A DNA stretch of 64,000 bases from NCBI RefSeq assembly GCF_000527155.1, contig NZ_AZUQ01000001.1, positions 2,415,615 through 2,479,614 of the forward strand, written 5' to 3'. This DNA is from Haloglycomyces albus DSM 45210. GTDB lineage: Bacteria; Actinomycetota; Actinomycetes; Mycobacteriales; Micromonosporaceae. Position 1 is the stretch's first letter; the number at the start of each line of letters is the position of its first letter. Shown here in pieces: positions 4,956 to 64,000 of this stretch. The notes under the pieces were generated by a model that did not search any database, was not told the DNA's origin, and saw only the letters and a program-made list of their open reading frames with translations. The position numbers and the translations under genes are program-made.

Positions 4956-6034
4956 TATCGTCCCCCTCTTAGCAGTGTGGTTCCTTCAGCTTCGCTGTCC
5001 ACACGCAGCTTTGTTGTACCTTCTTGTATGTCAACGACAGGCTCACCTTTCGGTTGCGGTGAAGAAAGCTCGATGACAGCAACGCTAATATTGTCATGCC
5101 CACCGTATTGCAGTGCTTTACCCATCAACGCTACAGTTTTAGCGCTCACATCACCGTTTGGCAACGGCACCAGATCCTGTGCCTGCCCTAGATATCGGGA
5201 CAAACCGTCACTGCAGACGATGACGTGTCCGCCGTCCAGCTCCGTTCGAATGAGATTTGGATTCAATTGCGGTGCGTCGGCTCCCAACCATGCCAGTAGT
5301 GCTTTGGCGTACGGACTCCTATAACGCTCATCATTCGGGTCGGCGCCCTGATAGTCAAGTCGAGCGGCGATGGTGTCGTCCACGGTCAATTCATTGGCCC
5401 GCTGAGCTCCGGCCCAGTACACCCGGGAATCGCCGACCCAGCAGACGATCACCTCGTTTCCCTCGACGACGGCCGACACATAGGTGGACGACGGGGGTGA
5501 ATCGGGGTATTGCTCTCCCACTTCGGCCACTTTTCGGTGCGCGGCCTCCACGGCTCGCTGGGACGCGGTTTCAGCCCGTTCGCCGGCATCGAGTGCGGTG
5601 CTCATTGCCTCGGCGGAAGCCTCCACTCCCGCCAATGCGGCCCGTTCGGAGTCGGTCGCTCCCGATACGCCGTCGCAGACGACGGCGAAGGCATGGCCCA
5701 TGGCACTGTGACCGATGGCGACGGCGTCCTGATTGTAGTGATGCCGTTTGCCCACGTCGGTTCCGGCGGCGACGTTCCTCTGGACGAAGTCGATGTGGTC
5801 GTCGCTTCCTCCGGGGTGTTCGGGATTGTCCACACGTGGAGACGACGACTTCCACCCGGTCGGCGGCGTGGTGGGAAGAGCGGCGGTGGCGTCCGGAGGA
5901 GTGAACGGAGTCGCCTCGTTGACGAGGTCACCGCCGCATGCTTCGCAGTACCGCCCGATTTCAGCGGGAAGGTCGCATTGACTGCATTTCATGGGGGCGA
6001 TGGTCGGCTGTGCTCCTGCTTTCGGTTGCGACAT
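4955..6034 (-). CDS. PP2C-family serine/threonine protein phosphatase
   Basis: This 359-residue metal-dependent phosphatase should reverse Ser/Thr phosphorylation. Residues about 17-35 form a small zinc ribbon (CSQC...CEAC), a feature shared with the downstream FHA protein and the upstream kinase. The PP2C domain follows with its metal-binding motifs: VVCDGVSG, VGDSRVYW, VCSDGLS and GGHDNIS. No transmembrane segment is seen, so it should be cytoplasmic. It lies about 20 bases after the PknG-like kinase gene and overlaps the FHA gene by one base, so kinase, phosphatase and FHA protein are probably co-transcribed and act on shared targets. Confidence 0.95.
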   Translation of the reverse strand: MSQPKAGAQPTIAPMKCSQCDLPAEIGRYCEACGGDLVNEATPFTPPDATAALPTTPPTGWKSSSPRVDNPEHPGGSDDHIDFVQRNVAAGTDVGKRHHYNQDAVAIGHSAMGHAFAVVCDGVSGATDSERAALAGVEASAEAMSTALDAGERAETASQRAVEAAHRKVAEVGEQYPDSPPSSTYVSAVVEGNEVIVCWVGDSRVYWAGAQRANELTVDDTIAARLDYQGADPNDERYRSPYAKALLAWLGADAPQLNPNLIRTELDGGHVIVCSDGLSRYLGQAQDLVPLPNGDVSAKTVALMGKALQYGGHDNISVAVIELSSPQPKGEPVVDIQEGTTKLRVDSEAEGTTLLRGGR

Positions 6035-6055
6035 GTTGGGTTCCTCTGAAGCCGG

Positions 6056-8401
6056 CTACAAAAGGGTGCGGGGTCGGTTGGCGTTGGCGAGGTCGACGTA
6101 GTGGACCTGTTTGGCACGATCGCTCTGTGCGTGGGCGAGTTTGCGATAGGAGTCTTCCAGAGCGAATCGCAATTCCTTCTCATTCGGATTGGTGTTGAGG
6201 ACGGGCGGTCCTTCGGAGTCGCCCATGTTGGTGACGTAATGCAGGGCGTATTGCAGCAGGCGCCCTGCCACGAGTTGATGGCGAGCCGGTTCCAGCTGTA
6301 GATCCACGAGGTTATTGCCCAGGTAGTGCAGCTCGTTAAGCCCTGGCGGCTGCGGGACACGCAGTGCGCCTTGGATGGCGGCCAATTGCGCCGTCTCGTA
6401 CTGCGAGGAGGTGCTGGGTATCTGCTGTAGTACCGTGATGGCCTCGGCGGGATAGTGGGAGGCGGCCAGAAGACGAGCATGGCCGAAGGCCGCCGAAATG
6501 AAGCGGCGGTCGCAACTCCAGATGCGTTGGTAGTGGATGGCGGCGGCCGTGGTGAACCCGGCCAGTTCCGCGCAGGCGGCGACGGCCAGACGGGGTGCCA
6601 ACTCTCCCGGCAGGTGCGAAAAGACGGAGTCGAAGGAGTGATAGGCGCCCTGCAGGTCGCTGTTGGCCAGCTGAAGCAGGCCACCCAACCAATTGGCCTG
6701 CCAGGTGTTGCCGTGTGTCTGGATCAAGTGATTGAGCGCCTGTACGGCGGTGGCGAGGTCCCCCATTTCGATGAGCGCTTCGATGCGACGGAGATTGACC
6801 TCGTGGCTTTGCTCGGGCGCGTTGGCCAATTCGGCGAGCACCAGGGCCGGCTGGGAGGCGGTGATGGTGCTGAGAAAGACGCTGGAAGGGTCGTCGGGAT
6901 CGGGGAGCGGTCGAGGAAGCGCTCCCAACACTTCTTGTGGAGTGGCGACCCGGAAGGCGTCGGCCTCGATGTCGGGAACGCCGAATACGGCCGCCTCACC
7001 CGAAAACAGAGTGGACGGTTCGTACAGGGGACGCCCTTCGGTGACCGAGAGGACCTCTCCCAGAACCCCGCGAACCTGAGCCTTCATTTCGGAGCCGCTC
7101 TGGAAGCGGGCGGCCGGAGCCGGATGACAGGTACGCTCCAGTAGGCGGTGGAAGGAGGGGAACTGCTGAAAGAGCTCGGTCTCTTCCACCGGAGGGAAGG
7201 AATTGCGGAACTTCTTGGTGAAGCCCTTGAAATCGAGCGCCAGCACCGCCATGGAACGTCCGATGGTGTAAAGGTCGGAGGTGATGGACGGCCCGGCGTT
7301 GAGGATCTCCTCGTTGGGAACCGAATAACCCGGCGTCCCGTACACCGCCGACTCCGTGTCGTCGATGCGTCGCACGGCACCGAGGTCGATGAGCTTGAGC
7401 CAGGTTTCGACGTGGATCACGTTGTCCGGCTTGAAATCACAGAACAAGAGATTGTTGTTGTGTAGGTATTCGAAGGCGGGCAGGATCTCAAGCGTGTAGG
7501 TGAGGACATTGGCCACGGCCATGGGAGCCCGTTCCCCGTTTTCGTCGGTTTGCTCTCGTATGTCACGCAAGGATTTTCCGGCCAGGTACTCCATGACCAG
7601 ATAGGACTGGATTTCCCCGGAGCGTTCGTCGACGGCGGTCACGAAGTCGATGATGTTGACGACGTTGGGGTGATCGATGCCGACCAGAAAACGCCGCTCG
7701 TTGATCGCCGATTCGATGGCGTCCTCGTCGTTGGTGGAGATGAGCCCCTTGATGACCACCCAGCGGTCCTGCAGGTCGTCCTGGAAGTTGGTGTCGTTCG
7801 CCAGGTAGATCCAACCGAGACCCCCGTGGGCGATCGTACCGAGCACCTCATAGCGCTCGGCGAGAAGATCGCCCGGGCCGAGCGACGGCGTGAACCAATA
7901 CGGAGTGCGGCAATGTGGACAGTAACCGTCGGTGCGTCCGGGACGTCCGGCCTGCGCTCGTCCGGCCGGTTTTCCGCAGGACGAACAGGTCCTCTTGTTC
8001 TCCGCCACCATGGGTTCGGCCATGAGTGATTCGGCGGGGTTGGCCGGTTCGATCGGGGGCATGTCGGCCATGCCTCCGCGCGCGCCGCTGGAACGGGTGG
8101 AGACCCGAATGCTCCCGCCGGGGCCCGACACCGGGGCGGACATCGGACGTGACATTGGCCCGGTAATCGGCCCCGAGGCCGGACCTGCCAGGGGATTGGC
8201 CTGTGGGGAGGGGACGGGCTGTGCAGCCGCGGCGGGAGGCCCCTGCGACTGTAGGCGCCGTCGAATCGCCATGGTGTCGGACTGTTCCATGGGCGGTGGT
8301 TGCGCGGGCGGTGCGGGAGGAGGGCCGCCGGCGTTGGGTGCGGGAGGAACGGCCGCGCTGTCGGGACGGTACCGCTGCGTATGGTCTTCGTGCTGCGCCA
8401 T
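6056..8401 (-). CDS. pknG: PknG-like serine/threonine protein kinase
   Basis: PknG is a soluble Ser/Thr kinase controlling glutamate/TCA metabolism in mycobacteria and corynebacteria. The roughly 781-residue protein shows the PknG architecture: a Pro-rich disordered N-terminus, a rubredoxin-like module with two CXXC pairs (CSSC, CPHC), a kinase domain and a C-terminal TPR region. Kinase landmarks are the glycine loop IAHGGLGWIYLA, the lysine of WVVIKG, CDFKPDNVI in the catalytic loop and LIDLGAVRR, where DLG replaces DFG as in mycobacterial PknG. ATG 8401 is chosen because the earlier in-frame start (8470) overlaps the preceding gene. The order GlnX, GlnH, PknG matches Rv0412c-Rv0411c-Rv0410c of M. 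tuberculosis. Confidence 0.94.
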   Translation of the reverse strand: MAQHEDHTQRYRPDSAAVPPAPNAGGPPPAPPAQPPPMEQSDTMAIRRRLQSQGPPAAAAQPVPSPQANPLAGPASGPITGPMSRPMSAPVSGPGGSIRVSTRSSGARGGMADMPPIEPANPAESLMAEPMVAENKRTCSSCGKPAGRAQAGRPGRTDGYCPHCRTPYWFTPSLGPGDLLAERYEVLGTIAHGGLGWIYLANDTNFQDDLQDRWVVIKGLISTNDEDAIESAINERRFLVGIDHPNVVNIIDFVTAVDERSGEIQSYLVMEYLAGKSLRDIREQTDENGERAPMAVANVLTYTLEILPAFEYLHNNNLLFCDFKPDNVIHVETWLKLIDLGAVRRIDDTESAVYGTPGYSVPNEEILNAGPSITSDLYTIGRSMAVLALDFKGFTKKFRNSFPPVEETELFQQFPSFHRLLERTCHPAPAARFQSGSEMKAQVRGVLGEVLSVTEGRPLYEPSTLFSGEAAVFGVPDIEADAFRVATPQEVLGALPRPLPDPDDPSSVFLSTITASQPALVLAELANAPEQSHEVNLRRIEALIEMGDLATAVQALNHLIQTHGNTWQANWLGGLLQLANSDLQGAYHSFDSVFSHLPGELAPRLAVAACAELAGFTTAAAIHYQRIWSCDRRFISAAFGHARLLAASHYPAEAITVLQQIPSTSSQYETAQLAAIQGALRVPQPPGLNELHYLGNNLVDLQLEPARHQLVAGRLLQYALHYVTNMGDSEGPPVLNTNPNEKELRFALEDSYRKLAHAQSDRAKQVHYVDLANANRPRTLL

Positions 8402-8412
8402 GTTTCCGTACC

Positions 8413-9372
8413 TTAATCCTGGTAGCGTGCTTTGGGGGGTTGGGAGTCGCCCAAGGTGGACGACAGCCAATCGTCATAGACGTCGTCCCAGCGCCCGTCG
8501 GAACGCATGTTCTCAAGCGTCGCATTGATGAAGCGGACCAAATCCTCATTGCCCTTGGCGACGGCGACTCCATACGGCTCGTCCGCGATGGGGTCGCCGA
8601 CGACTTCCAGGTTCGGGTCCTGGGTCGACAGTCCGGCCAGGATGACGTCGTCGGTCGTGAACGCGTCGACAGTGCCGCGCTGCAGGAGCGAAATGCAGTC
8701 GTTGAAGTCATCGAGCGTCACCGCTTGAGCGGGAGTTTCGGCGATGATTTGGGGGAGGGAGGTGGAACCGGCGGAGGAGCAGACTCGATGGTCTTCGGTC
8801 AGTGCGCTCAAGCCGGAGATTCCGGAGTTGACGTCCACGAGCAACCGTTGTGTCGCCGCGTAGTATTCCGAGGAGAAATCGACGCTCTCCCACCGCTGGC
8901 ACGTCATGGTCATGGTGCGAACGACGAAGTCGACCTCGTTGTTCTCCAGAGCGGGAACACGATCTTGGGAAGTCATGGGGACCCAGCGGATATTGACGTC
9001 GTCGCCACCGATGGCCTTCGCCAATTCCCGGGCGATGTCGACATCGAAGCCGCCCAGTTCGCCGCTGGCGGGATCGCGATAGCCCATGAGGTTGGTCGTC
9101 TGGCTGACTCCGATGCGGATGACGTCGGAATCGTCCAATTCAGAGCGAGCGTCGGCCGCGGTGACGCCCCCGGGATCGAAGGACTCCGTACGGTTGAACC
9201 CGCCACAGTCTTCCTCGGTGGTCGCTTCGGTGAGGTCCGGGCTGAAGTCCGCCCCTTGCGGGAGCGGTTCCGGGATGTCGACCTCGTTTATTTCCAGGCC
9301 TCCGCTCGACGAGCAAGCGGTGGCGGCGAAGAGTAGTGCCAGTGACGTTGCGGTGACTTTAAGCGGTCTCAT
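8413..9372 (-). CDS. glnH: GlnH-like amino-acid-binding lipoprotein
   Basis: This is a 319-residue family-3 solute-binding protein. The signal peptide ends in a lipobox (AATAC, C20), so it should be anchored outside the membrane. The body carries typical SBP_bac_3 features, including IRIGVSQTTNLMGYRD, GGFDVDIAREL and the later YGVAVAKGNEDL. There are no ABC permease or ATPase genes next to it. It overlaps the GlnX-like gene by 4 bases and lies 11 bases before pknG. In mycobacteria GlnH is the aspartate/glutamate sensor that signals through GlnX to PknG, and I infer the same role here rather than transport. Confidence 0.93.
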   Translation of the reverse strand: MRPLKVTATSLALLFAATACSSSGGLEINEVDIPEPLPQGADFSPDLTEATTEEDCGGFNRTESFDPGGVTAADARSELDDSDVIRIGVSQTTNLMGYRDPASGELGGFDVDIARELAKAIGGDDVNIRWVPMTSQDRVPALENNEVDFVVRTMTMTCQRWESVDFSSEYYAATQRLLVDVNSGISGLSALTEDHRVCSSAGSTSLPQIIAETPAQAVTLDDFNDCISLLQRGTVDAFTTDDVILAGLSTQDPNLEVVGDPIADEPYGVAVAKGNEDLVRFINATLENMRSDGRWDDVYDDWLSSTLGDSQPPKARYQD

Positions 9373-10739
9373 GCGTGATACTCCCGAATTCGTTGCTGCA
9401 GTCCTATGGAGACACTGGCGATGGCGAGCGCCGCCAGCACTCCGAGGCCGATAGCGGTACCGGACAGGGCACGTTGCGCATCGTGTAGACCGTTGTCGAA
9501 GCGAGCGCCGGCCGATTCGGACGCTTGAGTGAGGGCCTCATCGACCAGGTCGAAGGAATTGGCGACCGAGCCGTCGGCCGTACCCACCGATTTATCGAGG
9601 GCTTCGGTGTAGTCTCCTTCTCTCATGAGCGAAAGAACCTCATGGTGGCGGTCCTGCCAAGTGCGCGCCGCCAAGGCGGCGTTCTCCAGGTCACTGCGAA
9701 TCGACTCGTTGGGAAACTCTTCCGCCAGTCTTTGGAGCTCGGCGTCGTCACCGGCGAGGACCTCCATGTTGTCGGCGAAGTCCTGTGCGGCCGTGTCGTC
9801 TTCACCTCGGGAGACGAACAACAGTGACTCGGAGGCACGGGCTTCCTGGGCCGAGATCTGAATCGACGATATTCGTTCGTAGGGGTCACCGCCGTTGGTC
9901 TGCGCCCGATCCAGGTGGGAGGCGGTGGCCAAGGACGACAGAATCAACCATCCGGCGAGCGCGATCATGGCGATCGTCGCCCCCGTCAGCCCGAGATTGA
10001 ACACCCGGTTGGTTTTGGACTTGAGCCATACCGAGACGGCGATGAGAAACACGAGCGCTACGATCGCGGCGGCGAAGGCGATCCAGGGCGTCGCGCGCGC
10101 GGTTTCCTGATCATCGTCCAATTGCGATTGAGCACTGGATCGCAGGTCCGCCGCCAAGGGGAGGATGTCGTTGCGCATCATCGTAGAAGCGAGACGGAGG
10201 TGCGCCATGTTGACCGGCTGGTCCATACGGTGGTAGGTCCGGGCGGTTTCCACCAGTCCGGTATAGGTGGTCAGTGCGACGTTCAGTTCGGCGACGGTAT
10301 TGGCGTCGGATTCGCTGGACACTTGGGTCGCCGCGGATGACAGCGCCTGGGAGGCGTCCCGAATCGAAGTCTCATAGGTATCCTGCATCGACGCTGGGAC
10401 ACTGCCCACGATAAGGAACGTGGCGGAGGCGGCCGCGTTGGCCTCTGAGAGTGATTGGTACAGCTCGGAGGAGGTGACGGCCAGCTTCCCTGACCCGAGA
10501 CGGGTGGAGTCGATCGTGTCGCTTTTGGTCAACATGGCGGTCGCCGCGGTCGTACCGGCTGTGGCGATGAGGACGATGGCGATGACCATGGCGGTGACCA
10601 ACTGCCCGGGGGTTTGCGACAACTTCGCGCGTAGGGCGGATGCCCGTACCGGCTCCGGACGGGGTGCCGTCGCGCCACTGTCGTCGGTCGGGGGCGGAGG
10701 AGGGCCGACTGGAGCCTGGGGAGGGCCTTGCACTGTCAA
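9369..10739 (-). CDS. GlnX-like transmembrane signalling protein
   Basis: The 456-residue protein has a Pro-rich cytoplasmic N-terminus (about 1-40) and about four membrane helices: near residues 45-70, a pair around 215-270, and one near 425-450. Two Ala/Gln/Glu-rich extracytoplasmic helical segments lie between them, resembling chemoreceptor-like sensor domains. The size, topology and place just before the glnH-pknG pair match Rv0412c/GlnX, which relays amino-acid sensing by GlnH to PknG. The start is TTG 10739, preceded by GAGG at suitable spacing; a GTG two codons inside is an alternative. Confidence 0.85.
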   Translation of the reverse strand: MTVQGPPQAPVGPPPPPTDDSGATAPRPEPVRASALRAKLSQTPGQLVTAMVIAIVLIATAGTTAATAMLTKSDTIDSTRLGSGKLAVTSSELYQSLSEANAAASATFLIVGSVPASMQDTYETSIRDASQALSSAATQVSSESDANTVAELNVALTTYTGLVETARTYHRMDQPVNMAHLRLASTMMRNDILPLAADLRSSAQSQLDDDQETARATPWIAFAAAIVALVFLIAVSVWLKSKTNRVFNLGLTGATIAMIALAGWLILSSLATASHLDRAQTNGGDPYERISSIQISAQEARASESLLFVSRGEDDTAAQDFADNMEVLAGDDAELQRLAEEFPNESIRSDLENAALAARTWQDRHHEVLSLMREGDYTEALDKSVGTADGSVANSFDLVDEALTQASESAGARFDNGLHDAQRALSGTAIGLGVLAALAIASVSIGLQQRIREYHA

Positions 10740-14443: not shown

Positions 14444-16272
14444 CGTGCCTCCTCGGTGGCCGAAAGGACATCGGCGTACTCGGAATTGTTACGAAGAAGT
14501 TCGGAGTGCGTGCCGACCGCGGTGATGCGGCCGTCGTGCAAGAGAGCCACTCGGTCGGCCAGGGACACCGTCGAGGGGCGATGCACGACGATCAATGCCG
14601 TAGTGGAACCGAGGACACTGTGCAACGCCCGTTCCACCAGCTCTTCGGTATGAACGTCCAGCGCCGAGAGCGGATCGTCCAGCACCAGCACCGTGGGCCG
14701 TACGATGACGGCACGTGCCAATGCCAAGCGTTGTCGTTGTCCGCCTGAGAGAGTCAGCCCCTGTTCGCCGACTCGGGTATCCAGACCGTGTGGAAGGTCC
14801 CGCACGAAGTCCGCCTGGGCCACTCGTAGTGCCTGTTCGATATCGGCCTGGGACGCGTCGGGGCGCCCCAGAGTCAGGTTTTCCCGCACGCTCATGGAAA
14901 ACAGCGTCGGCTCTTCGAACGCGGTGGTGACCACCGAACGCAGGCGCGACAAGCTGAAACGGCGGACGTCGACTCCATCCAAAGTCACCTGTCCACGGGT
15001 GGGATCGGCCAAACGTGACGGCAGCTGCGCCAAGGTGCTCTTCCCACTTCCGGTTTTGCCGGCCAACGCCAGGGTTTCACCGGGCTGGAGAGTCAGGTTG
15101 ACCTCGGTGAGGACCTCCTGTGCCTTCGAAGCCCCCTCGGCCTCGCCGTAGGTGAATCCGACTCCTCGGAAGGACAGTTCTCCGCGTGGCTCGGTCACCG
15201 TGACCGGGTGGACGGGGTCGGTAATGGCCGGGGGAGTGTCCAGGATGTCGTAAATCCGGTCCGAAGCGGTGGCCGCTTCATTGAGGTGCGACAGAACCCA
15301 GCCGAGTGCCTCCATAGGCCATAGAAGCATCATCTGCAGCAGCATGAATGCGGTCAGTTCTCCCACCGACAGCTGCCCGTCGGTCACCAACAGGATCCCG
15401 ATCACCAGAAGAATGCCCAGCATTCCGGTGCCAATGCCGTCAAAAATCGACCATGTCCGAGAGGCGATCCGTTCTTTTGTCAAGGCGATGTCACGAGCCG
15501 TCGTTGCCTCGCCGTCGAAGCGTTGCGCCATGAGTGGACCACGTCCCATCGCCTTAACGGCACGGATTCCGAACGCCGACTCTTCGGCCTTGGAAGCGAT
15601 GTCCCCAAGCTTATTCTGCAGCTTTCTGCTTTGTGGAATGTAGTCTCGGAAGAAGGCGCGACCCACCAAATACAGTGGCACTACCGAAGTCATGCTCAAT
15701 AGCGCCAAACGCCAGTCGATCCAGAGCAATTGCAGAAACACCAGCAATGTGATGAAGATGCCGTGAATCAGGAATGTCATCCCGCCCGAAAAGAACCGGC
15801 GAATCATTCCCAGATCGGAGGTGGCTCGCGCCAGTAGTTGTCCACTCTGGAATCTGTCGTGGAAGCCGGTATGCAATCCCTGCAACTTTTCATAGATACC
15901 TTGGCGCATGTCGGCTTCCACCGCGTACGACGTGGCGATCTGAAAGTGGCGACGCACCCATATGGTGGCGGCTTCCAGCAGGCCCACGGCAAACAACGCC
16001 GCGGCCCATTTCCACAGGCCCACGATGTCGCCGTCGGCGATCGGCCCGTCGATCGCGAACCCGATGAGTCGCGGCAGCGTGGTCGCGAGTATGACGGTGA
16101 CGATCGTCAACAGCCACAAGGTATAGAAGCGATACCGATAGGGGCGGCAATAGCTCTTGATACGCCACAGATTCGCCAGAGGGCCATGGTGAATCCAGGA
16201 GGACTTGACATCGGTCGTCGACTCCTGCCGAGGAATCGACGTTTCACTGGGAGGAGAGGTCGAAGAAGTCAC
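14440..16272 (-). CDS. ABC exporter half-transporter (degenerate Walker B)
   Basis: This is the partner of the previous gene, about 610 residues from GTG 16272. It has an N-terminal membrane domain and a C-terminal ATPase with Walker A LAGKTGSGKST, signature LSGGQRQRLALARA and Walker B VLVLDDPLSALD. The residue after Walker B is Asp rather than the catalytic Glu, so its own ATP site should be weak or inactive. The open frame extends upstream to 16473, but that part overlaps the phosphatase gene and looks non-coding. GTG 16272 lacks a clear ribosome binding site, so the start is uncertain. The pair probably exports a lipid, peptide or drug-like substrate. Confidence 0.92.
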   Translation of the reverse strand: MTSSTSPPSETSIPRQESTTDVKSSWIHHGPLANLWRIKSYCRPYRYRFYTLWLLTIVTVILATTLPRLIGFAIDGPIADGDIVGLWKWAAALFAVGLLEAATIWVRRHFQIATSYAVEADMRQGIYEKLQGLHTGFHDRFQSGQLLARATSDLGMIRRFFSGGMTFLIHGIFITLLVFLQLLWIDWRLALLSMTSVVPLYLVGRAFFRDYIPQSRKLQNKLGDIASKAEESAFGIRAVKAMGRGPLMAQRFDGEATTARDIALTKERIASRTWSIFDGIGTGMLGILLVIGILLVTDGQLSVGELTAFMLLQMMLLWPMEALGWVLSHLNEAATASDRIYDILDTPPAITDPVHPVTVTEPRGELSFRGVGFTYGEAEGASKAQEVLTEVNLTLQPGETLALAGKTGSGKSTLAQLPSRLADPTRGQVTLDGVDVRRFSLSRLRSVVTTAFEEPTLFSMSVRENLTLGRPDASQADIEQALRVAQADFVRDLPHGLDTRVGEQGLTLSGGQRQRLALARAVIVRPTVLVLDDPLSALDVHTEELVERALHSVLGSTTALIVVHRPSTVSLADRVALLHDGRITAVGTHSELLRNNSEYADVLSATEEAR

Positions 16273-16333
16273 CGACCTACGGTAGAGCCGTGCCTCACTT
16301 CGTGCAACCGCATTTCTCTCCTGAGAGTTCCCC

Positions 16334-17080
16334 TTAGTACTCCACCAGTGCCTTTCGCAGGTCCTCACCGCGGTCGAAACCAATGACATCGGCATAGGTC
16401 GCGAGGGAGACGAATCGTTCCCGAATAAGTGCGAAGGTCTGGGGAATGACGTCGGGGAAGCATTCCAGGCCACGTTCCACCTCCGGTGCGCCGTACTTTT
16501 CGTTGCGGAAGCTCTGCCATCTCCGTAGGCCGATATTGCTCAAACAGTAATCGCGGGAAATATCCTCTTCGGACACACCCACGAGGGCCAGAGCCAGAGC
16601 GATCACTATGCCGGTGCGGTCCTTTCCGGCCATGCAATGGATCAGTGTCGTCTCACCGCGAGCGATGATCTCCAGAGCCTGGCGAATGGAGTGGTGACCC
16701 GACTCCAGCATCGAGGCGTAGCGTTGGGCGATAAAGCGCTCGCGTTGCCCGTGCACGAGGGGGTCGGCTGCGGTGTCTTCGAAGTACTGCCACCAGATGT
16801 GATCGAGGCCGAGCTGGTGAACCGTCTGATCGTCAGTGGCGGGGAAGATACCGAATTTGTCCCGTTCGATCGGACCGCGCAGATCGACGATATGGCGTAG
16901 CTTGGTGTCATTGCGGATGACGGCGAGGTCGTCGTCGGTGGCGTGCATCCAATTGTCGGACCGCAGCAGTACACCTTTTCGCAAACGCCCGCCGTCGTCG
17001 GTTTCCACTCCACCGACATCGCGGAAGTTGAATACCTTAGACGTCGGATAGAACTGTTCGGGGAGGGACGAGGACGGCAT
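16334..17080 (-). CDS. tyrosine/serine phosphatase, PtpB-like
   Basis: This 248-residue protein belongs to the Y_phosphatase3 (PtpB) family. The N-terminal NFRDVGGVETDDG segment and the P-loop HCMAGKDRTG (H148-G157, nucleophile C149, arginine R155) match M. tuberculosis PtpB, whose loop reads HCFAGKDRTG. It can be expected to dephosphorylate phosphotyrosine, and in the family also phosphoserine or phosphoinositides. No signal peptide is seen. ATG 17080 is preferred because AAAGG lies 8 bases upstream; GTG 17089 and ATG 17086 are alternatives. It is on the same strand as the ABC exporter genes, about 60 bases before them, and may be co-transcribed. Confidence 0.92.
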   Translation of the reverse strand: MPSSSLPEQFYPTSKVFNFRDVGGVETDDGGRLRKGVLLRSDNWMHATDDDLAVIRNDTKLRHIVDLRGPIERDKFGIFPATDDQTVHQLGLDHIWWQYFEDTAADPLVHGQRERFIAQRYASMLESGHHSIRQALEIIARGETTLIHCMAGKDRTGIVIALALALVGVSEEDISRDYCLSNIGLRRWQSFRNEKYGAPEVERGLECFPDVIPQTFALIRERFVSLATYADVIGFDRGEDLRKALVEY

Positions 17081-57355: not shown

Positions 57356-58403
57356 TCAGTTAATGGTTTCTACGGTGTATTGGACGTGTGGGCCGCGAAA
57401 GTTCCCTTGGATGATCCTCGGCAGCTTCGGAACCTGTCTGAAGAAGCCGGTCACCTCGGCTCGCATCTCGTTGATGGTCCGGTCTCCCAGATTTCGTTTC
57501 AGGTCGGCGTTGACCAGCTCGTCGGGGTTCAAGTGCGGGGCGTATGAGGGTAGGAAGTGCACCTCGATCTCGTCGGTGTTGGCGGCGGCCCGGTCTCGGA
57601 CGGTTCTGGAGCGGTGGACGGAGTGCCCGTCGAGGATGAGGTGGACTTTCCGGTCGGTTTGGCGGATCACACGCTTGAGGAACTCGATGCACGAGGCGAC
57701 TGTGAAAGTGCTGGCGCAGACGGTGAAATACTTCTTCCCTCTGGGGCTGATGATGCTGATGGCGTTGACGCCAAATCGATTGCCTGTGTCGTCACGGACG
57801 GGAGTCGTGCCCCCGCTCTGCCCAGGTCCGTCCGCCGAGGTGGTCGTTGCGGACACCGACCTGGTTGCCGAAGTACACGTCAGCGCCTTCGGCCTTCGCT
57901 CTTTTTCTGATGGCGGGGTAGTCCTCGCGCCTCCACTTCTCCGTCGTCTCTGGGGCGGCTTTCCTAGCGCGACGGTCGGGGCGCTGGAGTGACAGGCCCA
58001 AGCGCCTCATCACGTTGGTCAACCCGCCCGAGGAGAACGTGACTCCGTAATGGTGCTTGATGACCAGGCCGATCTTAGGCTTGGTCCAGAGGACACCGTC
58101 GAGTTCGAGGGCATCGGGATTGTAGTTGATGATCGCCTGGCGGATCGCGGCTTCCTCTGAGTCGGTCAGGTACCGGCGGGCCCCGACCGGGCGAGCTGGC
58201 TTCCCGGAATCGAGACCGTCCAGGTCGCTGTCCTCGATCTTGGCTCGCCAGTTGCCGATCGACTTTGTGGAGACGCCGAACAGCTCGGCGGCCTCGTCAT
58301 TGGGCATCCCGTCGAATACTGCCGCCATGCAGTGTTTACACAGGTCCTCCTGAGCGACAGGAGACAGCTTTCTCATGCCTTGCTTCAGAGCTCCGGCGTC
58401 CAT
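57356..58403 (-). pseudogene. IS630-family transposase, frameshifted and catalytically altered
   Basis: The first part (58403 to 57792) holds the helix-turn-helix N-terminus (NDEAAELFGVSTKSIGNWRA) and ends just after RTWAERG. The second part (in frame from about 57817 to 57356) continues with TTPVRDDTGNRFGVNAISI and keeps LILDGHSVHRS and LPSYAPHLNPDEL. The frame changes within a G5 run near 57810-57816. The first catalytic acid is also lost: where relatives read DE before (S/A)G, this protein has GNQVGV. It is therefore probably dead even if frameshifting occurs. Some IS630 members use programmed frameshifting, so the frame break alone would not settle it. Confidence 0.87.
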
Positions 58404-58602: not shown

Positions 58603-59691
58603 TCATGTCCGTGCTTGCTCGACCGCACGTTCATACAGATCTACATGGTTATGGAGTAGGCCTTGGTGTTCGACTTCCCGATACTCAAGGAATTGTGGGT
58701 TTGGTAGGAAGTTGCGGTCGAGCAAGACGTCCTGTGCCCTGAGCAGAGCTTCGAGAAATTGTTCTCCTTGCAGGTACGGGTTGCCTCCGTCCCAGTCGAT
58801 CCACACCGGGTCGGGTACCAAATTGCCGTGTCGGGCATGTTGCTCTGTCAGATAGCCGACGGGTGGGACGAGCGGTAGGAGCCCAAGATCGAAGGCGAAT
58901 TCGAGCTGTCCGGAATGACTGCCCCAGCGATAGGGGAGTACTAGGCAGTCTGACTCCAGCGCCATTTCAACTAGGTTCTCGTCGCTTGGATACGGTTTCA
59001 TCACGGTATTAATGCGTTGATCCGATTGGAGAAGCGCTATGAGGTCGGAAGGCCGGTATTCTTGCCTGGCGAAATCAATCGCGCTGAGCGCGCGCAGGAG
59101 CACATTGAACGTTGCGTGTGTGTGAGTCAACCCGAGTGACCAGTTGGCGAGAGTGGATAGGTGGTCTCGATTTGGTCGCATGGCCCCATACATGAAGTAT
59201 CTTGGGGCAGTGCTGTGGGTCCGGCTTCGACCGGCCACCAGAGCAGGCGGTATCGCGTATCCGAGTGGTAGGGAGCAGACTTCTTCAGATGGCGAATATT
59301 GGCTCTGTAGATCGCGAGCGGCACCATCGGATGTCGTCGTCCAGAAGACGCCGTCTTGGGACAGTAGTGCGTAGCGTTCAGCGAGAGCTTGATCGGTGGT
59401 GAACATGGCATGGAGGTCGTGGACTGTAAGGACGATCCCCGTTCCTGATGTTCGGCAGACGTCGATGAGATGTTCCAGGTCGTCAAGTAGCTCGAATTCG
59501 ATGTGGTGCAAGTGGATGACGTCTACCCAGTCCAATGGTTGATGGTTGAGAATCCACTTGGCAGTGAGGGCTGTCGGAACAGTGGTCGCGTGTATGTTCT
59601 GACCATTGACGATAGTAAAGTCGGTTGATTGTAGTTTCCACACGTAGGCGGTGCGTGCTGGAATATGGGCGATGCGGAGTGGGTTTGTCAT
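58603..59691 (-). CDS. GT4-type glycosyltransferase
   Basis: The 362-residue protein has a GT-B fold pattern. The N-terminal half carries RIAHIPARTAYVWK, then DVIHLHHIEFELL and LTVHDLHAMF, typical of GT4 acceptor domains. The C-terminal half has VLPYRWGSHSGQLEFAFDLG with the family's Ser/Gly...Glu nucleotide-sugar contact, followed by LLPLVPPVGYL. Donor and acceptor are unknown. Its ATG overlaps the end of the radical SAM gene by 4 bases, so the two are coupled and should serve one pathway. Confidence 0.85.
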   Translation of the reverse strand: MTNPLRIAHIPARTAYVWKLQSTDFTIVNGQNIHATTVPTALTAKWILNHQPLDWVDVIHLHHIEFELLDDLEHLIDVCRTSGTGIVLTVHDLHAMFTTDQALAERYALLSQDGVFWTTTSDGAARDLQSQYSPSEEVCSLPLGYAIPPALVAGRSRTHSTAPRYFMYGAMRPNRDHLSTLANWSLGLTHTHATFNVLLRALSAIDFARQEYRPSDLIALLQSDQRINTVMKPYPSDENLVEMALESDCLVLPYRWGSHSGQLEFAFDLGLLPLVPPVGYLTEQHARHGNLVPDPVWIDWDGGNPYLQGEQFLEALLRAQDVLLDRNFLPNPQFLEYREVEHQGLLHNHVDLYERAVEQART

Positions 59692-60588
59692 GTGCGAGCC
59701 CGGATGTTGAATCGTGTGTGTTGGTTCGTGGCTTGCTCATAGAGGTGCTGGAACGGCAAGTTCAATACGTTGCCGATGATTGGGTTTTCGGTCGTTGTGA
59801 CACTGCCGGTCTCGATGCTCAACCGACCGTCGGCGAATAGCCAGAGCCTGAGTGGATAGGGTTCGTCCTCGCTTCGTGTCGGTTGGGCGTAGAAAGCGAT
59901 CTCCTTATTGAGGCGTTGATGAGCCTGTGTGGCAGCTTCGTCAAACGATTGGCGGTCGTAGTTGTAGATCGCGGCTTTGCGCTCATTGGGGCGACCGATC
60001 GGCCTGTACTGTGACACGAGCCAGTATTCGACTCTGATCCGGTCATGGAGACCATTGATCAGTCCGGCAAGTTCTGACAGCTTTGTAACGCTGTTTGGCG
60101 AAGTGAATGTGTTGATTCCGAGCGTGTGGTTACCCTTTTGGAGAAGCTCGATATTGTCCCAGAACCGTTCGAAATAGCCGTCCCCCCCGAAACCAGTCGG
60201 CTGTGGCGGCGTTGGGTCCGTCAAGCGCCAGAGTCACGACGTCGATCCATGGAGCAATGGCGGAATGTTGTTGGCTTAGAAGGAGACCGTTGGTATGGAC
60301 ATTCGTTTCGAAACCAAGGTCTTTAGCGTGTCGTAGCGCAGCGGTGATGTGGTTGTCATATGGCATGAGTGGGTCACCACCGGTGAATACAATACGTCTT
60401 ACTTGGGGGACGGCGGCTACAGCGTCGAGCACACGGCGCACTGTCGCAGGATCGGATGAGATGCGGTTGCGATCCCGGTAGCAGAACTTGCAGACACCCG
60501 GCGAATCCTCAGCGGAATTAAGGTCCCATGCGTTGCAGTCAGTATTCAAAAGAAAATGGACGATCTCCGGTCCATCTACTGTAGACAT
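59688..60588 (-). pseudogene. radical SAM enzyme with CX14CX2C motif, frame broken in a G7 tract
   Basis: From ATG 60588 (AAGG upstream) the frame reads HFLLNTDCNAWD with C18, then GVCKFC with C33 and C36: spacing CX14CX2C, as described for some QueE proteins instead of the classic CX3CX2C. TGGDPLMP (69-76) is the SAM-binding GGE/D-P motif. The frame then fails in a run of seven C (plus strand 60182-60188); with six, DWFRG continues directly into DGYFERFWDNIEL and on to 59688, giving about 299 residues. The second half contains EYWLVSQYRPIGRP. The lesion may be a sequencing error, a phase-variable tract or a real mutation. The downstream coupled GT4 start is intact. Confidence 0.83.
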
Positions 60589-60779
60589 TGCGGCCCTTTC
60601 GATTGGAGTCAACATCAGGGTTGCAACGATCGAGGAGCGGCGGAACGATCTGACTCTGAATCGGTGCTGCACTCCTATGCGGGATTCAGTGCGGTAGCAG
60701 TGCAGTCTCCGATCATTCCGGCCGACGACGGCTTCGACGACGATGAGGACATCACGTTCCCAACGGGAGGAGCCGACGT
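60589..60779. promoter_or_regulatory. divergent promoter region of the biosynthetic gene set
   Basis: These 191 bases separate the radical SAM/GT4 arm (minus) from the three-gene arm (plus). They should carry both promoters. I could not identify operators with confidence. GGGAGGA at the right end is the ribosome binding site of the TrpD-like gene. Confidence 0.5.
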
Positions 60780-61925
60780 ATGCCATCCACCCCAGCACCA
60801 TGGACCGACGAAAGCATCATTCAACAGCACATACCACTGTCTGAAGAATCGTGCCCGACACTGTCCGCTCCACTCAAACGCGTACTCCGGCGGATCGGAG
60901 ATGGCCACAATCCGGCGGCGAACGAGATTGCTAGCGCCGCGCACGAGATCACCGGACTCCCTGGGAGCCCTGCGCGTGACGTTGCAATCGCCTGGTTGGC
61001 GTCCGCAATCATGACAGCCGGGCCCACACCGGAGGAGGTCACCGCGCTTCTTCAGGGAGCGACCCAACGGGACGGATTGCGGGCAACCAGCGTCGATGAA
61101 GTCGATGGCCGCCCTGTCGTCGTCGTTGCCGGAAGCGGGAAGAAAAGCCTCCCGTCATTCAACATCTCTACTCCAGCAGCGCTGATAGCCGCGACGTGCG
61201 GTGCAAACGTGGTCAAAATGGGTTCCCACGCCACGTCATCCCCGACAGGCTCCCGTGATCTGGCCGCCTCCCTATCGATACCTGAATCCGTCAGCGCCTC
61301 TGGGATCTTGGAACAACTTCGCAAGTGTAGTTTCGCGTTCGTTCCGATCGAATCGACTGTTCCAAGCCTCAACCGCGTCTATGGGCGAAGGTTTCACACG
61401 GTGACTCCCTTCAGCTTCGGCCTTGCTGCATTGGCCTGCCCACTGCGCCCCTACGCCACCGTTTTCGGTCTCTCCCACCCTAAGGTCGATGTGGCGACCC
61501 AGGTTCTCACCAACTTCGGTTTCTCTCGCGTCCACGCGACCGCCAGCGTCAACGAATCCACCGGCCAGTGGGCCGACGAATTCGCTATGGGATCGAAAAC
61601 CGTGCTAGCCACCCTGTATGAGCACAACACTGTGAACACCGTCAGTCACAAATCTGCGAATTTCGTTCCTGTCGAACCTGCTCCACCACCTACTGGTGCC
61701 CAATCGCCACATCGCCGCCCTACTGGTGTATTCACTGAGATCATCACAGGCCAGGCGGCGGAAAGCAGAACAAACGTTGTCACTGCCGGAACTGGACTCA
61801 TACTCCATGCAGCCGGAATCGAACCAACTATCCAACAAGGACAGAAACGGGCACACAAAGCCCTTGAAGAAGGACAGCCACATCGTCTTTTGGAACAACT
61901 GACAGGAGTCGGTCATGACCACTGA
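60780..61925 (+). CDS. TrpD-like phosphoribosyltransferase, unknown acceptor
   Basis: This 381-residue protein is of the anthranilate phosphoribosyltransferase / nucleoside phosphorylase type II fold. Aligning by eye to TrpD: the glycine loop is GSGKK (118-122) instead of GTGGD, NIST (128-131) is conserved, and the PRPP loop reads KMGSHATSSPTGSRD (146-160). The Mg-binding DE pair is kept at 266-267. The anthranilate side differs. It probably transfers phosphoribose from PRPP to, or cleaves it from, a non-anthranilate substrate. No other trp genes adjoin it. It overlaps the next gene by 11 bases. GGGAGGA precedes the ATG. Confidence 0.85.
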   Translation: MPSTPAPWTDESIIQQHIPLSEESCPTLSAPLKRVLRRIGDGHNPAANEIASAAHEITGLPGSPARDVAIAWLASAIMTAGPTPEEVTALLQGATQRDGLRATSVDEVDGRPVVVVAGSGKKSLPSFNISTPAALIAATCGANVVKMGSHATSSPTGSRDLAASLSIPESVSASGILEQLRKCSFAFVPIESTVPSLNRVYGRRFHTVTPFSFGLAALACPLRPYATVFGLSHPKVDVATQVLTNFGFSRVHATASVNESTGQWADEFAMGSKTVLATLYEHNTVNTVSHKSANFVPVEPAPPPTGAQSPHRRPTGVFTEIITGQAAESRTNVVTAGTGLILHAAGIEPTIQQGQKRAHKALEEGQPHRLLEQLTGVGHDH

Positions 61926-62925
61926 CGTCTCACTTGGCAGGTGGAAGGTCACTGCCGACGAAATCACCTGGGAGTCCCAGAAAAAACCACCGATTGCTCA
62001 CCCGGGTACACGCACCGTCCGTGTTATCCACTGCGGTATATGCGGAAGTGACCTCGCTAAACTATCAGCCCGCCCCTATCGTGCCCACTCCTCCGGCGCT
62101 TGGACACCCGGCCACGAAATGGTCATTGAAGACCTCAACGGACAGCCTGCCGCCGTCAATCCACTCATCCCATGCCAACGATGTACCCACTGTTCCCACG
62201 GGGACATTCATCTATGCCCCGGACTCAAACGCATCGGCTGGGACTACCCCGGAGGATTCGCCACCCACATCAATATCCCCGACTCTAATATCGTCCCTCT
62301 TCCATACGAGCTGACGGACATCGCAGTACTAGCCGACACCCTCGCCACTGCCATCCACAGTCTCCACTGCGCACGATCGCGAGCCAACACCAAATCAATC
62401 GCCATTATAGGAACCGGACCACTGGCTGTGGCCACCGTCGCCGTTGCTCACCTTCAAGGTTGGAGTACCGTAGCCGTCGTCGGACGACACCGCGAACGCC
62501 TTGACACGATTAACCCACTGGTCGGCGCTGAACTCGCATTGACCGGCATGCTACCCACCGGAGCTTTCGACCTGGTCGTCGACGCCGCGTCAGGAACGTC
62601 AACGCAACCGCTGGAAGAGGCCCTGCGCATTATCCGGCCCGGAGGGGAAATAGTCGTCCTCAACGCCTACCAACCTGGCCTGCAACTCAATACGCCACTG
62701 CGATCCGTCTTCTCCCGATCAATCACTCTCACCGGATCCTACAGCCACTGCCGCAACCACGGAAGCGACTTCCTTCACGCATTGCGCCTGCTCCAGAAGC
62801 ACCCGCAATGGGCGAACAAACTGATGACACACCGCCTGGCCATGTCCGAACTCCCTCGCGCTCTCAGTGGACACGCCAGCAAACCCAGCATCAAAACCGT
62901 TTTGACCAATGAGGGGAACCAATGA
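61915..62925 (+). CDS. zinc-dependent alcohol dehydrogenase (MDR family)
   Basis: The 336-residue protein has a catalytic zinc site with C40 in HCGICGSD and H67-E68 in PGHEMV. The structural zinc is bound by C87, C90, C93 and C101 (CQRCTHCSHGDIHLC). The Rossmann motif is IIGTGPLAVATVAVAH. It resembles sugar/polyol dehydrogenases of the MDR family, including those in aminocyclitol pathways, but the substrate cannot be told. Its ends overlap both neighbours (11 and 4 bases), so the three plus-strand genes are translated as a unit. Confidence 0.93.
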   Translation: MTTDVSLGRWKVTADEITWESQKKPPIAHPGTRTVRVIHCGICGSDLAKLSARPYRAHSSGAWTPGHEMVIEDLNGQPAAVNPLIPCQRCTHCSHGDIHLCPGLKRIGWDYPGGFATHINIPDSNIVPLPYELTDIAVLADTLATAIHSLHCARSRANTKSIAIIGTGPLAVATVAVAHLQGWSTVAVVGRHRERLDTINPLVGAELALTGMLPTGAFDLVVDAASGTSTQPLEEALRIIRPGGEIVVLNAYQPGLQLNTPLRSVFSRSITLTGSYSHCRNHGSDFLHALRLLQKHPQWANKLMTHRLAMSELPRALSGHASKPSIKTVLTNEGNQ

Positions 62926-63962
62926 CCGCCACCGCACCGATCCTGTTCTCCGAGGACTACTACAACACCGTCATCGGCCAATTTGGATACTCGACCTTCG
63001 AGATGAAACAGTTCAACTTCGACTTCGCTGGCCTATCGGATCGTGAACTGAATACCCGCTACCTGTGCCACCACCATGGTGACAAATTCGCTGCAGCCCC
63101 GGCCTCCGAACGCATCATCACCACCGGCTTTGGCATGTCCGGACCACCCCACATGGCAACGGTCTCCCACATCCAAAAGATCATCCGATTCCAACAGAAC
63201 AGAGAAAACTGCCAGATCGTCCTCGGAGACCTCGATGCCTACAACGGTAGACGCCGCGACTTCAACTGGACCCGCGAACTAGCTGAAAAGTTCACCGTCT
63301 TTACCCGACGACTCGGATTCGATACCGCCAGAGGGGTACTACGCGACCAGACCAGCGAAAACTCAGCGCTGCGCAACATGTATCTTGTCGGTCGGTACGC
63401 CACCGACAACGACTTCGACGCCGCCGAAGAAGACAACCACAGCTACTACTGCGAACAAGGAATCGTCGATGCCTCGATGACGTTCCGCCGACGCCTATCG
63501 TTGACTCTGATGGCCTCCGATTTCATCACCCTCGGCCAGAACTACCGGCACGTCGTCGCTCTCCTTGGTATCGATGAGCACAAGTACGTCCGTTTCGCAC
63601 AAACTATCCTCGATCGGTTCAACAAATCTATCCCGCTACACTCACGCTTCAATATAGGCGCAATATACTGCCGAATGACTAGCGGATTCAACGGATACCC
63701 GAAATTTTCTAAGAGCATCCCCGGGTCAGCCATCCATGTGGAATCACCCGATGACGAAATCTACTCACGTATCACCGCAGACTCCACTCGTCAACCAGAG
63801 AAATCCCCTGTATTCCAACTAATGTGTCAAGTTAACTACTGCTCATACGATGATCTCAACCGACTGTACAGCGCATGTACTAACCGGAGCCCCGTTTGGG
63901 CGAGGGAGCGACGAACCTTCGCCGACTACCTGATCGCTCTAAAACATCTGTGGCCCCAGTGA
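62922..63962 (+). CDS. tryptophanyl-tRNA-synthetase-like protein
   Basis: The 346-residue protein has the class I synthetase layout, nearest to TrpRS. A HIGH-type segment reads SGPPHM (73-78, only the first His of HIGH kept), GDLDAYNG (102-109) follows, then GQNYRHVVALLGIDEHKYVR (205-224, the family's vPvG.DQ..h..laR region). The KMSKS-type loop is KFSKSIPGSAI (260-270). It could activate an amino acid, but the altered HIGH motif and the gene context argue against housekeeping TrpRS. By analogy with MshC (a CysRS-derived ligase in mycothiol synthesis) it may form an amide with a small molecule or charge a tRNA for a side pathway. Overlaps the dehydrogenase gene by 4 bases. Confidence 0.82.
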   Translation: MTATAPILFSEDYYNTVIGQFGYSTFEMKQFNFDFAGLSDRELNTRYLCHHHGDKFAAAPASERIITTGFGMSGPPHMATVSHIQKIIRFQQNRENCQIVLGDLDAYNGRRRDFNWTRELAEKFTVFTRRLGFDTARGVLRDQTSENSALRNMYLVGRYATDNDFDAAEEDNHSYYCEQGIVDASMTFRRRLSLTLMASDFITLGQNYRHVVALLGIDEHKYVRFAQTILDRFNKSIPLHSRFNIGAIYCRMTSGFNGYPKFSKSIPGSAIHVESPDDEIYSRITADSTRQPEKSPVFQLMCQVNYCSYDDLNRLYSACTNRSPVWARERRTFADYLIALKHLWPQ

Positions 63963-63980: not shown

Positions 63981-64000
63981 ATGTACACCGATCATCGTTT
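63981..64000 (+). CDS. possible start of a further gene, cut by window end
   Basis: An ATG at 63981, 18 bases after the synthetase-like gene, opens a frame that runs off the window after six codons (MYTDHR). No strong ribosome binding site precedes it. If real it would be the fourth plus-strand gene of the set. Confidence 0.3.

Follow-up and report, generated by a model that had tools for sequence, protein, structure and literature searches.

The stretch of DNA analysed here, hereafter the window, comprises 64,000 nucleotides of Haloglycomyces albus DSM 45210 (positions 2415615-2479614 of a 3.54 Mb genome assembled as one contig), and towards its end carries a compact gene cluster encoding a tryptophanyl-tRNA synthetase (TrpRS)-like protein, a TrpD-like transferase and a zinc-type dehydrogenase. 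The original prediction, made from the letters of the window alone, had described five genes in two overlapping arms. Four of these are intact (the glycosyltransferase-like, TrpD-like, zinc dehydrogenase and TrpRS-like genes), and neighbouring genes overlap by 4, 11 and 4 bases as described, the first of these overlaps lying between the glycosyltransferase-like gene and the C-terminal half of the radical S-adenosylmethionine (SAM) gene. The 191-base gap between the arms was likewise confirmed; the fifth gene, the radical SAM gene, is broken and split over two frames. The features, with the evidence for each, are:

58603..59691, minus strand: GT4-like glycosyltransferase, 362 aa, accessory (open reading frame (ORF); alignment of 11 members, 28-47% identity to the window protein)
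59688..60224, minus strand: C-terminal half of a radical SAM protein, broken gene (frame differs from that of the N half; 44% to the radical SAM protein of locus L021)
60130..60588, minus strand: N half of the same radical SAM protein, carrying CX14CX2C (PF04055, 4.2e-10; 59% to L021)
60589..60779, no strand: divergent region between both arms, 191 bases (ORF layout)
60780..61925, plus strand: TrpD-like transferase, 381 aa, GSGK replacing GTGGD, DE pair kept (PF00591, 3.8e-18; 22-sequence alignment; model mf3dffb843c4e)
61915..62925, plus strand: zinc-type medium-chain dehydrogenase, 336 aa (PF08240, alcohol-dehydrogenase-type, 8.8e-11)
62922..63962, plus strand: TrpRS-like protein, predicted to activate an amino acid, 346 aa, with GPPHMAT and KFSKS (PF00579, 1.7e-13; model m4df7a91d3667)
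63981..64000, plus strand: start of an RlmN-like radical SAM gene, which continues to 64901 beyond the window edge

The TrpRS-like protein had been assigned to the relatives of class I synthetases, and both its fold and its motifs bear this out. The best match of its structure model (predicted local distance difference test, pLDDT, 88.2) is archaeal TrpRS 3a04 (Z 30.4, root-mean-square deviation 2.8, 319 residues aligned, 20% identity), and the class I W/Y synthetase fold is accompanied by HIGH-like and KMSKS-like motifs. Scores to functional TrpRS models fall far below their thresholds (24.3 bits against 176.75 for TIGR00233, and 53 against 451 for the best TrpRS model). Cyclodipeptide synthases are not known to carry the ATP motifs; here these are kept, and PF00579 is the only Pfam match up to an E-value of 1, which argues against membership of that family. 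The idea that a shortened C-terminus marks tRNA independence was dropped, since the alignment of the model extends over almost all of archaeal TrpRS. The protein is thus related to the class I synthetases and retains ATP-binding motifs, and activation of an amino acid is predicted for it.

Likewise, the TrpD-fold transferase named in the original prediction was recovered by both Pfam and structure modelling: the protein carries a Glycos_transf_3 domain, and its model (pLDDT 84.4) finds TrpD 4owo as best Foldseek match (TM 0.75/0.82, 9.5e-19). It shares with TrpD the fold, the NxST loop and the DE pair, the latter invariant among 22 aligned TrpD-like sequences, and differs from it in the GTGGD loop, which is GSGK in 22/22, and in a changed KHGNR. 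Its score to the trpD equivalog (100.2 bits) lies well below the cut-off of 199.05.

To gauge the distribution of the cluster, we scanned titled genome contigs with a profile of five sequences and recovered 46 further loci, a lower bound because the scan was pattern-based; a scan of the same contigs with the single protein found no relatives. Within the order of the host, the TrpRS-like protein was matched in 6/397 genomes, including its own and one weak match. The loci fall into two classes, class A with 28 scan loci (L015-L041 and L059) and the window's own (29 in all), and class B with 18 (L042-L058 and L060). Three duplicates (L009=L022, L010=L049, L011=L053) stand outside these counts, as does L012, a class B locus with a TrpRS from the host's own family. 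Class A hosts span Actinomycetota, Firmicutes, bacteria of the candidate phyla radiation (CPR) and archaea, and 17/18 class B loci are actinobacterial. One class A locus titled Melainabacteria (L016) groups inside Actinomycetota in the trees, and may be misbinned.

Gene content within each class is recurrent. In class A, a TrpD-like gene was found in 22/29 loci and a zinc dehydrogenase in 23/29 (the window's own included; those of L018 and L040 are fragments), along with a HAD-type phosphatase in 17/29 as detected with five queries. Class B loci carry a TrpD-like gene in 17 out of 18 cases (some partial, that of L051 weak), an epimerase-like gene in 16/18, and a DAO-type FAD oxidoreductase in 12/18. 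Two CPR loci (L025, L026), three archaeal loci (L027, L033, L035) and two of Firmicutes (L032, L041) share the gene order TrpRS-like, TrpD-like, dehydrogenase, and three Clostridia loci (L028, L031, L036) have the same order with a tyrosyl-tRNA synthetase (TyrRS) gene inserted after the TrpRS-like gene. The co-occurrence analysis that had been proposed as a refuting test of the original prediction shows the TrpRS-like, TrpD-like and dehydrogenase genes staying linked in many class A loci across phyla, and supports the idea of a small, biosynthetic-looking pathway. In Amycolatopsis rhizosphaerae we also observed two class A clusters (L017, L020), which lie on separate contigs and are each accompanied by a TyrRS, and a Dojkabacteria cluster includes a possible ComF-like phosphoribosyltransferase (L025:14983-15891; PF15610, 28.6 bits against a cut-off of 28.7). 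In L059 and L060 the TrpRS-like gene survives as a broken or remnant copy.

Both classes of TrpRS-like protein form a single branch apart from the TrpRS and TyrRS rows (Shimodaira-Hasegawa-like approximate likelihood ratio test, SH-aLRT, 99), so that the suggested phylogeny places the family separately. The two classes differ in the HIGH region, which reads PHxxT in 26/26 class A rows (GxPHxxT in 25) and NAPTAG[TS] in 18/18 class B rows, and share a KMSKS region of PK[FM][SG]KS in 44/44; these rows leave out the class A fragments L039, L040 and L059 and the class B fragment L060, and include L012 in class B.

The original prediction had also noted no other translation genes nearby. This proved to be an edge effect: an RlmN-like gene and a TyrRS gene lie just past the window, and the strongest clue to the cluster, a companion TyrRS replaced by TrpRS in the sister class, was therefore missed. 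In L002, a fetched region that spans the edge, starts at window position 58386 and holds the downstream genes in its positions 5596-10175, the following were read:

Window 63981-64901 (L002:5596-6516), plus strand: RlmN-like radical SAM protein, 306 aa (TIGR00048, 242.5 bits against a cut-off of 290)
Window 64994-66391 (L002:6609-8006): companion TyrRS, 465 aa, divergent (TIGR00234, 265 bits against a cut-off of 113.8)
Window 66441-67736: HTH/TPR-type regulator, weak NsdA/TPR match
Window 67742-68560: methyltransferase

The pairing of class and companion is consistent across the relatives. A companion TyrRS was identified in the fetched flanks of 25/29 class A loci and a companion TrpRS in 16/18 class B loci, while one TrpRS and five TyrRS queries, at E-values up to 1e-4, detected neither a TrpRS at any class A locus nor a TyrRS at any class B locus. 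The extra synthetase gene, within the cluster or next to it, that marks self-protected clusters for synthetase inhibitors is thus present. By chance, about 0.72 TyrRS in 29 and 0.16 TrpRS in 18 loci would be expected, figures that ignore shared descent and assume one genome size (that of L016); the loci are related, and tail probabilities are therefore not to be taken literally. The stronger argument is the recurrence of the pairing across distant phyla with TyrRS of different lineages.

Most host genomes also encode more than one copy of the respective synthetase. At least two TyrRS (TIGR00234 above cut-off, partial copies included) were identified in 21/27 class A genomes, or 23/27 when the below-cut-off copies of G405 and G407 are included; above the cut-off, G399 has one copy and G413 none. 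At least two TrpRS (TIGR00233 above cut-off) were found in 17/18 class B genomes. The genome of the window encodes another TyrRS, with 27% identity to the companion. A TyrRS tree of 43 rows, built by a quick method, unites 16 companions from Actinomycetota and Clostridia and a further TyrRS from Clostridium beijerinckii (L088) in a single branch (SH-aLRT 99). Five second TyrRS sampled from these Actinomycetota lie apart from it; a sixth, the second TyrRS of a Frankia genome (L072), falls alone outside the branch of the other five. The remaining companions belong to TyrS-type, archaeal-type and further lineages. In the archaeal loci L027 and L035 a bacterial-type TyrRS at the cluster occurs in addition to an archaeal-type one, that of L027 on a long branch, and in the Nanoarchaeon L035 the two are adjacent at the cluster, with a third TyrRS elsewhere in the genome.

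Catalytic motifs of the companions are largely kept. HxGH and KMSKS are present in the window's companion and in all 16 of its branch, and both motifs were found in 18/19 rows of TrpRS companions; among the other companion TyrRS, simple patterns missed one or both in L026, L027 and L034, and in one of the two copies at each of L035 and L041. At a Streptomyces albiflavescens locus (L059:10001-11903) the TrpRS-like gene is broken and the TyrRS appears intact, as if protection had outlived production. A search upstream of the companions for leader peptides enriched in Tyr or Trp codons gave no consistent signal, with a Trp-rich short ORF in L053 (duplicate L011) and small Tyr-containing ORFs in L036 and L037.

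Spare, insensitive synthetases are described for the producers of albomycin, mupirocin and indolmycin and for the agrocin 84 strain (PMC9437257, PMC7916415). Linkage of the genes, the match of companion to class, the presence of more than one synthetase copy in most genomes, the folds and the kept catalytic motifs are all observed here, and a spare, divergent synthetase whose identity follows the class of the accompanying biosynthetic-looking genes is what one would expect of self-protection against a synthetase inhibitor. We therefore propose an amide of an amino acid and a phosphoribosyl-derived sugar as the product. On our main reading the clusters are biosynthetic for inhibitors of TyrRS (class A) or TrpRS (class B), with the spare synthetase conferring immunity, and we give it a probability of roughly 0.6.

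We infer the substrates, the order of steps, the product, its inhibitory action and the resistance as follows. The TrpD-like enzyme would attach a phosphoribosyl or similar phospho-sugar to a nucleophile, after which the zinc dehydrogenase would oxidise a sugar hydroxyl and the HAD phosphatase, where present, would strip the phosphate. The TrpRS-like enzyme would then use ATP to convert an amino acid into its adenylate and transfer the activated amino acid to an amine on the sugar moiety; the resulting amide would mimic the aminoacyl-adenylate. Methyltransferases, glycosyltransferases and radical SAM enzymes may decorate the product in some strains, and the companion TyrRS or TrpRS would replace the inhibited housekeeping enzyme and so protect the producer.

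Several observations weigh against this proposal. No HAD phosphatase was found with the five queries in 12/29 class A loci, the window's among them, and seven loci (L016, L034, L037, L038, L039, L040 and L059, several of them near contig ends) have no TrpD-like gene. Given the changed GTGGD loop, use of phosphoribosyl pyrophosphate is not certain. At the positions corresponding to Tyr125 and Gln147, which hold the amino group in TrpRS, the TrpRS-like proteins have Ser/Ala or Asp, and Glu, respectively; the pocket departs from both TyrRS and TrpRS, and its residues neither tell Tyr from Trp specificity nor point to any other single amino acid. A companion TyrRS was not found in L018, L033, L029 and L039 (the last two near contig ends), nor a companion TrpRS in L042 and L048 (both near contig ends), and genomes G403 and G408 yielded no TyrRS besides the companion. 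Furthermore, some second TyrRS genes are present for unrelated reasons, TyrZ being an example (PMC9437257).

Comparison with known systems gives the proposal some shape. SB-219383 reportedly consists of Tyr amide-linked to a sugar-like bicyclic amino acid, a structure that would fit an amino-acid ligase acting together with sugar enzymes. This dipeptide is a selective inhibitor of bacterial TyrRS from a Micromonospora sp. (PMC9054317), and no gene cluster is mentioned for it in the accessible portions of the literature examined. By analogy it may be a candidate for the type of class A product, its identity with the product of any locus being a guess. Compared by description, the sbz cluster for the isoleucyl-tRNA synthetase (IleRS) inhibitor SB-203207/altemicidin also contains a spare synthetase, and uses a class I synthetase-type enzyme to join an amino acid to the warhead (PMC12945691); there one IleRS does both jobs, whereas here a separate TrpRS-like protein stands beside a full TyrRS or TrpRS and a TrpD-like protein. 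Indolmycin producers protect themselves from a TrpRS inhibitor with a spare resistant TrpRS (PMC6804068), and class B carries a spare TrpRS. In contrast, again compared by description, no resistance gene is detectable in the indolmycin cluster according to the accessible portion of that source, and class B is marked by TrpRS-like, TrpD-like, epimerase-like and DAO-type genes. Finally, MshC, a relative of the synthetases, links an amino acid with an amino sugar (PMC9437257), but it is CysRS-like, and for the window's protein the W/Y synthetase family is the sole Pfam match at E-values up to 1; the mycothiol-like product of the original prediction is only an analogy. No description of such a cluster was found in the open-access literature (PMC), in agreement with the earlier view that the combination is undescribed. 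Tentatively, and at somewhat less than even odds, we suggest that the clusters define an undescribed product family built with a TrpRS-derived ligase and a TrpD-derived transferase, occurring in matched TyrRS and TrpRS versions with immunity synthetases and spread across Actinomycetota, Firmicutes, CPR bacteria and small-genome archaea, with a class A product perhaps of the SB-219383 type.

An alternative that we consider unlikely makes the companion a biosynthetic partner, which would supply Tyr- or Trp-tRNA or transfer the amino acid itself, the charged tRNA being used by the TrpRS-like protein or by another enzyme. VlmL supplies charged tRNA in this manner in valanimycin biosynthesis. The additional IleRS of the sbz cluster, SbzA, which is also a self-resistance protein, installs an isoleucyl unit from Ile-tRNA (PMC12945691), and the TrpRS-like model spans nearly the whole archaeal TrpRS fold, so that contact with tRNA may be possible. 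However, the TrpRS-like protein keeps ATP-binding motifs of its own, so a second synthetase is not required, and a housekeeping synthetase could charge the tRNA without a divergent extra copy drawn from several lineages.

Improbable, in our judgement, is a metabolic linkage in which the genes serve a tyrosine or tryptophan stress pathway and the spare synthetase guards against misincorporation, in the way that TyrZ shields Bacillus subtilis from D-Tyr (PMC9437257). T-box leaders directly precede the TyrRS in 4/8 Firmicutes loci (L032:8875-9063, L037:14329-14515, L038:10131-10323 and L041:15264-15445), as such a role might suggest. T-box-controlled TyrRS genes are common, and for this reason we do not count the leaders as evidence. 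Against this explanation, the cluster is sparse within the order of the host and scattered across distant phyla, and broken or remnant copies occur, both of the TrpRS-like gene (L059, L060) and of the radical SAM gene in Saccharopolyspora spinosa. We regard as less probable again that the cluster makes an unusual amino acid which the companion charges to tRNA for use in proteins. A tRNA-Tyr gene does lie near the cluster in L025 and L032, but both have a plain GTA anticodon, neither tRNA-Tyr nor tRNA-Trp was found in the other 31 of the 33 loci scanned (L009 and L022 being one locus), and a TrpD-like protein with a dehydrogenase would be odd tools for an amino acid.

The minus-strand genes, which the original prediction had counted within the pathway, are accessory: glycosyltransferase-like genes were identified in 11/29 class A loci with the queries used, and are lacking in 18/29, and radical SAM genes occur in few, most loci having neither a radical SAM nor an RlmN-like gene. 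The glycosyltransferase label itself is weak. Apart from a chance-level PKD match, the window protein had no Pfam match up to an E-value of 0.1, and 4/11 family members match Glyco_transf_4 (best 6.7e-7); a profile of the family searched against solved structures gave nothing below an E-value of 0.09. Upon closer inspection of the radical SAM gene, the CX14CX2C motif was confirmed by counting in the translation of the N half, and the N and C halves were found to occupy two frames, the junction falling close to a stretch of seven G at about 60180. The proteins of Saccharopolyspora shandongensis (L021) and Actinospica (L024) that are homologous to it have one frame, with no stop over 283 aa spanning both halves, and only remnants are present in S. 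spinosa; the break may be either a sequencing error or real damage. The archaeal locus L027 contains a stretch (15834-16340) similar only to the C-terminal half, with little space upstream for an N half. The QueE type that had been suggested for this protein found no support, the N half scoring 31.7 bits to TIGR04508 against a cut-off of 240 and the L021 homologue 23.5, and neither is a viperin by the prokaryotic model (viperin_w_prok, 48.4 and 35.6 bits, respectively, against a cut-off of 180). In Kutzneria (L040, 714-1541) an RlmN-like gene, 61% identical to the window's, also lies between the TrpRS-like and TyrRS genes.

These accessory genes are what would recommend a role in tRNA or rRNA modification, which we hold to be very unlikely, in which a queuosine-like base would receive a sugar and an amino acid and the additional synthetase would read the modified tRNA. 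GluQRS adds glutamate to a queuosine-like base, and the window's cluster combines a CX14CX2C radical SAM protein with glycosyltransferase-like and RlmN-like proteins. The absence of these genes from most class A loci, the queE score far below its cut-off and the alignment of the RlmN-like protein to TIGR00048 only from profile position 69 onward all speak against it, and class B does not fit, tRNA-Trp not being known as a queuosine tRNA.

The cluster lies in an accessory region, as originally proposed. A two-frame overlapping transposase of the IS630 kind is found at 57356-58403, and beyond the methyltransferase gene follow a Gabija pair (L002:10811-14427, window 69196-72812, outside the window; GajA 792 bits to PDLC00097, GajB 629 bits to PDLC00103) and a TraA-like relaxase; proteins resembling a type I-E cas set, followed by a repeat array, were observed at L003:9491-19159, no family search having been made on them. 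All but Gabija were recognised by eye, and a plasmid search with a protein query returned no match. The adjoining Gabija and cas-like genes, the patchy distribution and a match of the intact radical SAM homologue to pVip (1.8e-11) could suggest a chemical or nucleotide-based anti-phage defence system, which appears scarcely likely given that the pVip score is weak (42 bits), that viperin_w_prok gave 48.4 of 180 bits, and that the TrpRS-like and TrpD-like proteins match no PADLOC model at 1e-4.

Natural inhibitors of the antibacterial targets TyrRS and TrpRS are few, and the pairing of class and companion would name the likely target ahead of the compound. Saccharopolyspora spinosa, Streptomyces, Micromonospora, Salinispora and Clostridium beijerinckii offer organisms in which to work. 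If the clusters indeed produce inhibitors of these synthetases, they would give a use for some unexplained duplicate synthetases and add a family of synthetase-derived ligases to enzymology. Even ultra-small prokaryotes would then carry an antibiotic pathway, and one may ask what leads CPR bacteria and small-genome archaea to retain it.

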